Positions 2,420 through 5,008 of a stretch of 5,144 nucleotides of DNA are shown here, in pieces. The stretch is taken from positions 1 to 5,144 of the forward strand of contig JADFLK010000195.1 in the NCBI GenBank assembly GCA_022564455.1, written 5' to 3'. The notes under the pieces are model-generated. The model ran no database searches. It was not told the origin of the DNA and worked only from the letters and a program-made list of their open reading frames with translations. Position 1 is the stretch's first letter; the number at the start of each line of letters is the position of its first letter. The stretch is from Bacteroidota bacterium. Lineage in GTDB: Bacteria > Bacteroidota > Rhodothermia > Rhodothermales > Rubricoccaceae. The position numbers and the translations under genes are program-made.

Positions 2420-3973
2420 ATGCCCTCTCGCGTCTGGAGCGAGGCCGTCCACGGCGTGGACGCTCTCCCCATCGAAATCGAATCCAACGTTGCCAACGGC
2501 CTTCCCAAATGGACGGTCGTGGGCCTTCCCGACGGTGCGGTTCGGGAAAGCCGGGACCGCGTCTGGGCAGCGCTGAAGAACTCAGGCTTCCCCGTACCTC
2601 GCGGCCGTGTGACGATCAATCTCGCGCCGGCAGATGTCCGAAAAGAGGGATCGGCGTTTGATCTCCCCATTGCAGTAGGTTTGATTGCGGCCCAGCGGGA
2701 TCTCATCTCGCCGGACGTGCTGAACGAACTGGCGATCATGGGCGAGTTGTCGCTCGACGGATCCCTGCGGCCGGTACGCGGCGTATTGCCGATGGTGGTG
2801 GGCGCCCGGGATTCCGGCAGGCGGGCGGTTATCGTGCCCTCCGAAAACGCGGCAGAGGCCTCCGTGGTTGACGGCATTGACACGTATGCGGTCAACTCAC
2901 TTCGTGAGGCGTTCTCACTTCTCGCTGATCAGGATGGACGTGGTACAGCGGTACAACATGATCTGAAGGTTCTCTTCGACGAGGAGCTCCACTATCCCGT
3001 CGATTTCGCGGACGTTAAAGGGCAGCAGCACGTCAAGCGTGCGCTGGAGGTTGCCGCAGCCGGAGGCCACAACGCGTTGATGATCGGCCCGCCGGGCTCC
3101 GGAAAAACGATGCTGGCGCGGCGCATCGCGACCATTCTCCCACCGCTTTCGACCGACGAGGCGCTGGAGACCACCAAAATCCACTCGGTAGGGGGGCGGC
3201 TGACCAATGGAAGGGGCCTCATTACCGCGAGGCCGTTTCGAGCGCCGCACCACACGATTTCAAACGCCGGCCTCTGCGGCGGCGGCTCCAACCCCATGCC
3301 CGGAGAGATCTCGCTGGCGCACAACGGCGTCCTCTTCCTGGACGAACTCCCCGAATTCGACCGGGCCGTCCTTGAGGTGCTGCGCCAGCCGCTGGAAGAA
3401 GGGGATGTCACGATTGCAAGAGCGAGCATGACGGTCAGGTATCCTGCGCGGTTCATGCTGGTGGCATCCATGAACCCCTGCCCGTGCGGCCACCTGAACG
3501 ATCCCGGCAGAGCGTGCGTGTGCGCGCCGGGGCATGTTCAGCGGTACCTCGCCAGGGTATCGGGGCCGCTTCTGGACCGCATCGACATGCACGTGGAAGT
3601 CGCGCCGGTGCCGTTCGACGAGCTCGACCAGCGCGCGCCTGCGGAGGCCTCCGCCTCTGTTCGGGAGCGCGTGGTTGCAGCCAGAAACACACAGATCCTG
3701 CGTTTCAAGGACGATCCCAAAGCAAAAAACGTCCACGCCAACGCGCAGATGTCGAGCCCGCTCGCCCGGAAGTACTGTGAGCTCGACGACGCCGGCCGCC
3801 AGCTCATCAAAACCGCTTTGGCTCGCCTGGGGCTCTCCGCCCGCGCCTACGACCGCATCCTGAAAGTGGCCCGCACCATCGCCGATCTGGCCGGATCGGA
3901 CGCGATCTCGCCCGAGCACCTCGCCGAGGCCATCCAGTACCGCTCGCTGGATAGGAGTGGCTGGGCGGGCTAG
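2420..3973 (+). CDS. comM: ComM/YifB family AAA+ ATPase (Mg-chelatase-like)
   Basis: Complete 517-residue cytoplasmic protein, normal length for the family. Residues 1-165 form the N-terminal domain of the Lon-protease/S5 fold (GLPDGAVRESRDRV at 35-48, NLAPADVRKEGSAFDLPIA at 67-85). Residues about 190-395 are the AAA+ Mg-chelatase domain: Walker A GPPGSGKT (223-230), FRAPHHT (273-279), Walker B GVLFLDEL (303-310), MNPCPCG with four clustered Cys (354, 356, 366, 368), and the LLDRID arginine-finger region (Arg387). The C-terminal helical domain contains SARAYDRILKVARTIADLAG (473-492). In naturally competent bacteria ComM is a hexameric helicase that promotes branch migration while incoming DNA recombines; many non-competent species carry it too, with unclear role. 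The start is firm: the only in-frame ATG after a stop at 2390, and it aligns with the usual family N-terminus. GC is about 66 percent in a hand-counted part, typical host composition. The RAYT gene follows after 3 nt. Confidence 0.96.
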   Translation: MPSRVWSEAVHGVDALPIEIESNVANGLPKWTVVGLPDGAVRESRDRVWAALKNSGFPVPRGRVTINLAPADVRKEGSAFDLPIAVGLIAAQRDLISPDVLNELAIMGELSLDGSLRPVRGVLPMVVGARDSGRRAVIVPSENAAEASVVDGIDTYAVNSLREAFSLLADQDGRGTAVQHDLKVLFDEELHYPVDFADVKGQQHVKRALEVAAAGGHNALMIGPPGSGKTMLARRIATILPPLSTDEALETTKIHSVGGRLTNGRGLITARPFRAPHHTISNAGLCGGGSNPMPGEISLAHNGVLFLDELPEFDRAVLEVLRQPLEEGDVTIARASMTVRYPARFMLVASMNPCPCGHLNDPGRACVCAPGHVQRYLARVSGPLLDRIDMHVEVAPVPFDELDQRAPAEASASVRERVVAARNTQILRFKDDPKAKNVHANAQMSSPLARKYCELDDAGRQLIKTALARLGLSARAYDRILKVARTIADLAGSDAISPEHLAEAIQYRSLDRSGWAG

Positions 3974-3976
3974 ACA

Positions 3977-4480
3977 ATGGCGCTCTATCGAAACACATAC
4001 TGCATCGAATCAGCACGCCTGAAAGGCTGGGATTATGGCTCGCCCGGATTGTATTTCGTGACGATATGCACGCAGGGTCGGATACCGTGGTTTGGTGCGG
4101 TCAGCGAAGGACAAATGTGGTTATCCGAGGTAGGCCGTCTGGTGAATGCGGAATGGCATCGCATGGGTTGCATCCGGCATGACGTCGAATTAGATGCCTG
4201 GGTTGTTATGCCCAATCACGTCCATGGGATCATCCAATTGATCCCTACGGGACGCACGCATTCGTTGTCCGCGTGGCGGCCGGGCGTCTTGGGTTCCATC
4301 ATCAACCAATTCAAAGGTGCGTGTACCAAACGAATTCGGGCTTCTGCGGATGGCGACTTTGCGTGGCAGGCCCGGTTCCACGATACCGTAATACGGTCCC
4401 AGTCGCATCTCGATAATGATCGGCGGTACATCTCCGAGAATCCAATGCGGTGGTCAATCAAACACGAACACAAATCGTAA
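3977..4480 (+). CDS. REP-associated tyrosine transposase (RAYT), IS200-like Y1 HUH family
   Basis: Complete 167-residue protein, usual length for the family. It opens with YRNTYCIESARLKGWDYGSP and YFVTICT (26-31), typical of the RAYT branch. The HUH metal site is HVH at 81-83 within MPNHVHGI, followed by GSIINQFKGACTKRI (106-120), WQARFHDTVIR (130-140) and RYISENPMRW (150-159), whose Tyr151 is the likely nucleophile. These enzymes cut and rejoin single-stranded DNA at the foot of REP hairpins carrying a G(G/T)AG head, and are usually single-copy and not flanked by IS ends. All catalytic parts are intact. The gene starts 3 nt after the comM stop, with no good ribosome site (AGGAG at 3953-3957 is about 19 nt away), so translation may depend on comM. 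Its TAA stop is part of the head of the first REP hairpin downstream. Composition is less GC-rich than comM. Confidence 0.93.
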   Translation: MALYRNTYCIESARLKGWDYGSPGLYFVTICTQGRIPWFGAVSEGQMWLSEVGRLVNAEWHRMGCIRHDVELDAWVVMPNHVHGIIQLIPTGRTHSLSAWRPGVLGSIINQFKGACTKRIRASADGDFAWQARFHDTVIRSQSHLDNDRRYISENPMRWSIKHEHKS

Positions 4481-4502
4481 AGACGACCCTTTGGGGCGTC
4501 TC
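4477..4502 (+). repeat. REP-like hairpin, forward, with GTAA head
   Basis: GTAA (4477-4480) is followed by AGACG-A-CCC, loop TTT (4490-4492) and GGG-G-CGTCT (4493-4501): a stem of five plus three pairs split by one A/G mismatch. This is the layout of a REP unit (head tetranucleotide plus imperfect stem) recognised by RAYT enzymes, except that the head is GTAA rather than GTAG. Its TAA is the stop codon of the transposase gene. In RNA the hairpin could also help end transcription, although no U tract follows. Confidence 0.75.
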
Positions 4503-4522
4503 TCATGGTTGCGTATCGCATG

Positions 4523-4596
4523 CGGAGACGCACCGGAAGGGTCCGGAGACGCCCCGGAAGCGTGCGGAGACGCCCCGGAAGGAGACGCCCCGGAAG
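4523..4596 (+). repeat. Tandem array of four half-REP units, 21-base period
   Basis: CGGAGACGC(A/C)CCGGAAG occurs at 4523-4539, 4544-4560 and 4565-4581, each separated by a different 4-base spacer (GGTC, CGTG); a fourth copy from 4581 abuts the third without spacer. Only the first copy has a variant base (A at 4532). Each unit equals one stem arm plus the loop of the right-hand REP, so a single unit cannot fold by itself. The Arg-rich frame running through it is a by-product of the repeat, not a gene. Spacers are far too short for a CRISPR array. Confidence 0.85.
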
Positions 4597-4607
4597 GGCG
4601 TCTCTAC
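4582..4607 (-). repeat. REP hairpin, reverse, with canonical GTAG head
   Basis: On the minus strand GTAG (4607-4604) precedes AGACGCCC, a 5-base loop (4595-4591) and GGGCGTCT, a perfect 8-pair stem that extends by one pair if the last head base is included. Head plus stem match the signature of REP units mobilised by RAYT enzymes, and the transposase gene lies just upstream on the other strand. The TAG inside the head is also the stop codon of the exbD-like gene. Together with the forward hairpin at 4477-4502 it forms an inverted pair (a BIME-like arrangement) around the half-unit array. Confidence 0.85.
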
Positions 4608-5008
4608 TGATCCTCGAACACGTCCGTAGCAATCGCCACGCGCATGCCGAGGAAGCTGCCGGTGCTGGCAACCGTTGCGAGTTGCGAAATCGTCGCCTCC
4701 TGGTCGGCGTAGACGGCGAGGGCGTCGCGGTTGCCACGGATCTCGGTGATGGTAAGGGCGAGATCTTCTTCGGAGGTCTCTTCCTGTTCCACGAAAAACC
4801 GGCCGTCTTCGGTAATGGTGATCGCTACGTATTGCTGCTCAAGGGGAGCCGTGGCGTTTACCCTCGGCAGCGTCACCTGCAAAGCATACTGCGTGACGAA
4901 CGACGACGTCAGCATGAAGAAGATGAGCAGCAACAACACGATATCGGTCAGCCCGGCGAGGCTGAATACCGAGAGCGGCTTCCGGCCGGATGAGAAATCG
5001 AGCGGCAT
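4604..5008 (-). CDS. exbD: ExbD/TolR family biopolymer transport protein
   Basis: Complete 134-residue protein, usual length. A short cytoplasmic N-terminus (MPLDFSSGRKPLSV) leads into one membrane segment (about residues 17-37, GLTDIVLLLLIFFMLTSSFV) with the conserved Asp22 needed for proton passage in this family. The remaining ~95 residues are a periplasmic domain with VTLPRVNA after the membrane segment, VAITITEDGRFFVEQEE and LAVYADQEAT, the usual ExbD/TolR fold pattern. With ExbB it forms the inner-membrane motor that drives TonB (outer-membrane uptake) or Tol-Pal; sequence alone does not separate ExbD from TolR. The start ATG lies 3 nt after the exbB-like stop, so the two are co-transcribed and probably translationally coupled; there is no clear Shine-Dalgarno sequence. 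The gene ends ...VFEDQ with its TAG lying inside the GTAG head of the reverse REP, convergent with the transposase gene. Confidence 0.9.
   Translation of the reverse strand: MPLDFSSGRKPLSVFSLAGLTDIVLLLLIFFMLTSSFVTQYALQVTLPRVNATAPLEQQYVAITITEDGRFFVEQEETSEEDLALTITEIRGNRDALAVYADQEATISQLATVASTGSFLGMRVAIATDVFEDQ

Follow-up and report, generated by a model that had tools for sequence, protein, structure and literature searches.

REPs have been reported to lie mostly behind genes, and in the account of GTAG REPs given by Di Nocera, De Gregorio and Rocco (2013, PMC3733652) the GTAG termini often provide a TAG stop (there called 'opal') to the flanking open reading frames. The overlap between a REP head and a stop codon is therefore a phenomenon that was already published in 2013. 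REPs located immediately downstream of the stop codons of RAYT (REP-associated tyrosine transposase) genes have been reported as well (Nunvar 2010, PMC2817692). For the TnpA-REP enzymes that have been studied, GTAG or GTGG is described as the motif that serves for recognition or as a guide, and the mapped cuts fall next to the REP, at CT (or CA); substitutions in GTAG abolish both binding and cleavage by the E. coli enzyme, and two other enzymes tolerate some of them (PMC8266576). Subclass 2.4 of TnpA-REP is described as having a patchy spread over Bacteroidetes and other phyla (PMC6006769). In E. coli, REPs at most 15 nt from a stop codon have been linked to lower translation and ribosome stalling (PMC12306157, citing earlier work).

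The stretch of DNA analysed here, referred to as the window, comprises 5,144 nt of contig JADFLK010000195.1 from a member of the Rhodothermales (Bacteroidota; assembly GCA_022564455.1). It contains a RAYT gene and a REP array between yifB and an exbD-like gene (Table 1), and the stop codons of two adjacent genes are supplied by the repeat, whose GTAG tag includes one.

Table 1. Features of the yifB-exbD region of the window; G049 and G050 are two other Rhodothermales genomes.
Feature	Position	Strand	Evidence
yifB (Mg-chelatase-like AAA ATPase), left neighbour	2420..3973	+	TIGR00368, 645 bits
RAYT + REP array block, absent from relatives G049/G050	3973..4610	.	blastn of window against the relatives' loci L145, L146
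RAYT (REP-associated tyrosine transposase), 167 aa	3977..4480	+	PF01797, 25.4 bits (cut-off 23)
Forward REP head GTAA, non-canonical, containing the RAYT TAA stop	4477..4480	+	
Forward REP hairpin	4481..4501	+	DNA fold z -4.58
Four degenerate GGAGACGCCCCGGAAG-type units between the outer REPs	4518..4597	.	direct repeat family D2
Reverse REP hairpin	4583..4603	-	DNA fold z -4.77
Reverse REP head GTAG, containing the exbD TAG stop	4604..4607	-	
exbD-like gene, 134 codons, 2 fewer than G049/G050	4604..5008	-	PF02472, 68.1 bits

Both coincidences of head and stop codon that had been pointed out in the earlier note are exact to the nucleotide. The RAYT frame ends in AAA TCG TAA and the exbD frame, on the minus strand, in GAT CAG TAG, each followed directly by a hairpin. 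It is also true, as had been remarked, that in both genes the last sense codon has the G in its third position, which adds no independent evidence because this position is unavoidable whenever GTAR supplies an in-frame TAR. The yifB gene ends in GGC TAG, the same as in G050, and has thus retained its native TAG stop. The G+C content of the RAYT gene is 0.54 compared to 0.645 for yifB. Further upstream, at 104-2272 (with 1-150 and 2298-2359), the window differs from G049 by another insertion. Here a gene for a multicopper oxidase with a T9SS tail, at a G+C content of 0.476, lies within the 3' end of a gene encoding a protein with a His/Asp-rich tail, and a copy of that tail flanks it on either side.

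The block from 4477 to 4607 is an inverted REP pair (repeat family I2) enclosing the degenerate units. Folded as DNA and compared with dinucleotide shuffles, both outer hairpins are more stable than expected (Table 1), and the whole block has a fold z of -5.37. In the reverse unit, a GT[A/G]G head immediately precedes the palindrome on its 5' side, as in a canonical GTAG REP; the forward unit, whose head is GTAA, falls outside the canonical GT[A/G]G definition, though its hairpin is present. The RAYT frame contains the HUH motif NHVH and the tyrosine motif YISENP and is matched by PF01797 above the cut-off, as is characteristic of a Y1 transposase, while its score against the curated RAYT model NF047646 is 67.9 bits, under the cut-off of 80. 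Among 30 Rhodothermales RAYT loci, the gene end could be read in 12, one of which (L165) has a GTAG head at the RAYT stop. A reading of the array as a terminator finds no support, with a simple consensus scan of 3900-4750 giving no terminator-like or promoter-like site.

The junction is seen without the array in G049 and G050, whose ExbD orthologs are 98% and 90% identical to that of the window at the protein level. In both genomes yifB and exbD lie tail to tail and their stops overlap, within TTAA in G049 and CTAG in G050, and a blastn comparison with the window found neither RAYT nor REPs at this junction. In place of window positions 3973-4610 there are 7 nt in G049 and 6 nt in G050. The flanking DNA is 96-97% identical to the window in the aligned parts for G049 and, for G050, 81% identical on the exbD side and 79% and 74% in two pieces of yifB. 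Both REP-free exbD genes stop two codons later than that of the window (...GN* and ...SN*), with the native ends GGG AAT TAA in G049 and AGC AAC TAG in G050 where the window has CAG TAG. At exbD neither relative has a resident G-TAG, and at least 5 nt have been lost at the exbD end of the window. As the last codons are lost and CAG TAG stands in their stead, the head has given exbD a new stop rather than landed on a resident G-TAG, and the loss of bases implies either that the insertion was not clean or that a later change followed.

The RAYT-REP block is most likely a recent arrival at the yifB-exbD junction, since both relatives are without it and have the longer exbD end in common, which makes insertion in the lineage of the window the simpler reading by parsimony. 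Two RAYT relatives, P0001 and P0002, are 90% and 75% identical. RAYT homologues in G049 lie on other contigs with 43% identity at best, and the 37 genomes that have a RAYT match do not include G050; together with the lower G+C content of the RAYT gene, this fits an acquisition from outside without proving it. Of greater use than the stop overlap is the empty site, which defines a junction before and after the event in relatives whose flanks are about 96% and about 80% identical. A testable consequence of the insertion is that the exbD message now terminates directly at a predicted hairpin.

How often heads are stops was counted in stretches from many phyla and from Rhodothermales, with the head pattern GTAG-AGACGC. 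Set A (L001-L114) consists of the 114 stretches listed by a pattern scan of genome contigs, which has at least this many matches. The wider pattern is present in 14 of 114 Rhodothermales genomes, and set B (L185-L263) consists of stretches around the matches listed in 8 of these 14. The matches listed contain 363 heads, 220 in A and 143 in B. The pattern fixes GTAG, which places GTAA and GTGG heads outside the sample; double-foot repeats are counted once per strand, and the REP copies of one genome are related to each other, though their insertion sites differ. Gene calls were our own and based on codon bias. Calls by longest open reading frame (12/188 and 6/141 heads at a stop) were discarded in their favour because the longest frame is sometimes wrong in GC-rich loci. 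Such cases are L200 and L206, in which no Pfam family matches and an alternative frame reaches a TGA a little upstream.

Among the matches listed, 175 of the 363 heads have a same-strand gene end at most 400 nt upstream (104 in A, 71 in B), 31 lie deep within called genes (16 in sense and 15 in antisense orientation), and the other 157 fall in neither group. The TAG of the head is the in-frame stop of the upstream gene in 18 heads (A 12/220, B 6/143), and 345 of the 363 heads listed are not stop codons. The number of stop-overlap heads drops to 17 without L185, a frameshifted-looking gene whose last 20 residues extend beyond the Pfam-matched part, apparently out of frame. Behind the stop, the listed matches give 59 heads at 1-30 nt and another 59 at 31-100 nt, and by our gene calls the 150 nt before a stop contain none of the 363. 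Uniform spread of the 175 heads over the downstream gap would place 1.76 at offset 0, so that the 18 observed amount to a roughly tenfold excess. The genome G049 has six matches of the wider pattern, and three of its six heads are stops (two without L185) against 3/137 in the other seven sampled Rhodothermales genomes; the contrast has a post hoc p of 0.014 for 2/6 and, together with the window, hints at a lineage effect. In G001 and in G035, 0 of 36 heads are at stops. As to heads within genes, a Parcubacteria stretch (L088) has three sense heads in a single 490-codon gene, and L190 of G049 has a head at codon 208 of a gene of 535 codons.

A different outcome is obtained when the comparison takes into account how often GTAG is found at gene ends in the first place. 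In a background of 472 REP-free genes whose gap measures 40 nt or more, the GTAG counts are 51 at the stop itself and 119 in the 1-100 nt that follow; this enrichment at gene ends arises because G-TAG is a common stop. Compared to these 51:119, the REP heads at 18:118 are rarer at stops (odds ratio 0.36, p 0.0005; with 17 heads, odds ratio 0.34, p 0.0003), and against a looser background the depletion is also seen in A (p 0.005) and in B (p 0.0001) separately. The overlap exceeds chance with regard to uniform placement and not with regard to GTAG availability. As a head is less likely to be a stop than a GTAG in general, a stop-codon rule has no surplus to explain. Measuring the overlap in this way makes a targeting rule unnecessary, and the unusual target rule that had been proposed for the transposase is not supported.

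The suggestion in the earlier note that REPs are tolerated at gene ends holds up better, with 18 of the 175 downstream heads falling exactly on the stop. The note had held that the overlap would be coincidental if most copies sat away from stop codons, as they do among the matches listed, or if exbD orthologs without the REP ended at the same Gln-TAG, which those of G049 and G050 do not. The scoring of heads against a position control, which it had proposed, confirms an excess over uniform placement and reverses into a deficit against the GTAG background.

For seven further stop-overlap genes, the same comparison with REP-free relatives was possible. PrmA, PurQ and an amidohydrolase have the same terminal codon in REP-free relatives. 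A CGG-TAG end without a REP exists for PrmA in G123 and for the amidohydrolase in G122, and in the other REP-free relatives of these three genes the stop is TAA, TGA, or TAG without a preceding G; for PurQ, G120 and G122 have the REP at one and the same stop. In L189, the methyltransferase is 5 residues shorter than its counterpart in G050. The C-termini of NadE and of the L230 and L243 genes differ by at least one residue among relatives and were counted for neither route, and for the L248 gene the search gave no clear ortholog. In 6 of the 12 stop-overlap proteins of set A (longest-ORF calls), a Pfam match ends within six residues of the protein end, which argues against severe truncation of those six. 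From these comparisons, two routes probably occur, one by landing at a resident G-TAG and one by supplying a new stop. Other repeats are found near some of these stops: a relative of the L243 gene (L309 in G038) has a GTAG end followed by a different, imperfect GTAG-type palindrome, such that this gene seems to have a different repeat at its stop in each of the two genomes, and a PurQ relative without this REP (L281 in G123) has another GTAG palindrome a few bases past its TGA stop.

We consider it probable that the stop overlap marks the edge of the region in which REPs are tolerated and that the RAYT gene and its GTAG-REP array inserted at yifB-exbD without any need for stop-codon recognition. 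A RAYT gene with its array would have entered the tail-to-tail junction in this Rhodothermales lineage, a direction given by parsimony, and the protein family points to the RAYT itself as the agent of insertion. The GTAG head, the presumed recognition motif of the REP, contains TAG and would become the stop of an upstream gene that it meets in frame. Over many insertions, selection would remove copies that disrupt or lengthen a coding sequence close to its end, and those at or behind the stop would survive. Offset 0 would then be the edge of the tolerated region, where heads would accumulate because native G-TAG stops offer the motif and in-frame early heads make a new stop; exbD, with its last codons and native stop replaced by CAG-TAG, would be a case of the second route. 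The excess at offset 0 and the lack of heads in the stretch before the stop argue for this model, as do the empty sites in G049 and G050, the REP-free orthologs of PrmA, PurQ and the amidohydrolase with their unchanged ends, and the Pfam matches that reach almost to the end of six set A proteins. On the other hand, motif supply alone, as measured in the REP-free genes, predicts more stop heads than are seen, and their scarcity must be ascribed to a cost of insertion which is assumed here, such as that of a hairpin abutting the stop. The lower translation reported for E. coli genes with REPs close to the stop (PMC12306157) likewise makes it doubtful that insertion at a stop is neutral, as the earlier note had suggested. 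Furthermore, the heads inside called genes indicate that some REPs persist in coding sequence, the loss of bases at an exbD end without a resident G-TAG in relatives is not what clean transposition leaves behind, and the stop heads of G049 hint at an effect of lineage.

Heads might instead land anywhere with the element and truncate a gene whenever they fall in frame upstream of its native stop. This would explain why exbD and the L189 methyltransferase are shorter than in relatives, yet out-of-frame landings, expected to be twice as common, would read through the REP, and no heads are found in the 150 nt before a stop; with three of the seven compared genes unchanged in length as well, this account is unlikely. 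It is quite unlikely that the RAYT of this lineage places REPs at G-TAG stops or tail-to-tail ends, for example by pairing of the GTAG guide with a resident GTAG. The excess over uniform placement, the stop heads of G049, the G-TAG already present in REP-free PrmA and amidohydrolase orthologs and the position of the RAYT block at a junction of overlapping stops would all agree with such a rule; the deficit against REP-free GTAGs, the lack of stop heads in G001 and G035, the exbD relatives without a resident G-TAG and the known cut sites at CT or CA (PMC8266576) are opposed to it. The same cut sites correct the earlier view that RAYT enzymes cut at the head. That a preference for convergent or G-TAG gene ends, with the head doubling as stop, holds for the window and the G049 lineage and brought the RAYT unit to yifB-exbD is very unlikely. 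Plain coincidence in a single window chosen by eye is highly improbable: the overlap concerns a small fraction of heads and a reader seeking striking features will meet some, but the excess at offset 0, the reported arrangement of REPs right behind RAYT stops (PMC2817692) and the GTAG head ending the RAYT gene of L165 all speak against it. The overlap is real, non-random against the naive null, confined to a minority of copies and already published, and it looks like the edge of REP tolerance rather than a special targeting rule.

With the REPtron (Nunvar 2010, PMC2817692), the window shares the REP right behind the RAYT stop and the inverted REP pair. The REPtron is described with REPs on both sides of the RAYT gene, whereas a repeat search of the window found none of the repeats of the array 5' of the gene, where the gap between yifB and the RAYT start is 3 nt. 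The RAYT can also be set beside TnpA-REP subclass 2.4 (PMC6006769), for which the motifs NH[IFV]H, WQ and YIxNNP are given: NHVH and WQ are present, and YISENP differs from the Y motif at one position. Members of this subclass are described as having a REP inside the gene, and of the RAYT relatives, P0002 carries one in frame and P0029 one out of frame between HUH and Y, a region in which the RAYT gene of the window has no full REP. As in E. coli REPs near stops (PMC12306157), a hairpin lies directly behind the stop; the REP sequence is different, and an effect on expression is an analogy here. In the GTAG REPs of Di Nocera and colleagues (PMC3733652), the phenomenon is the same as in the window, with the REP terminus forming the stop of the flanking frame. 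That paper's passage on GTAG repeats does not include Bacteroidota, to which the window belongs, among the phyla it names, and its text on stop overlap comes without the control against GTAG availability that the present analysis has. Unlike those REPs, the window has a GTAA at one of its two heads and an empty site in relatives.
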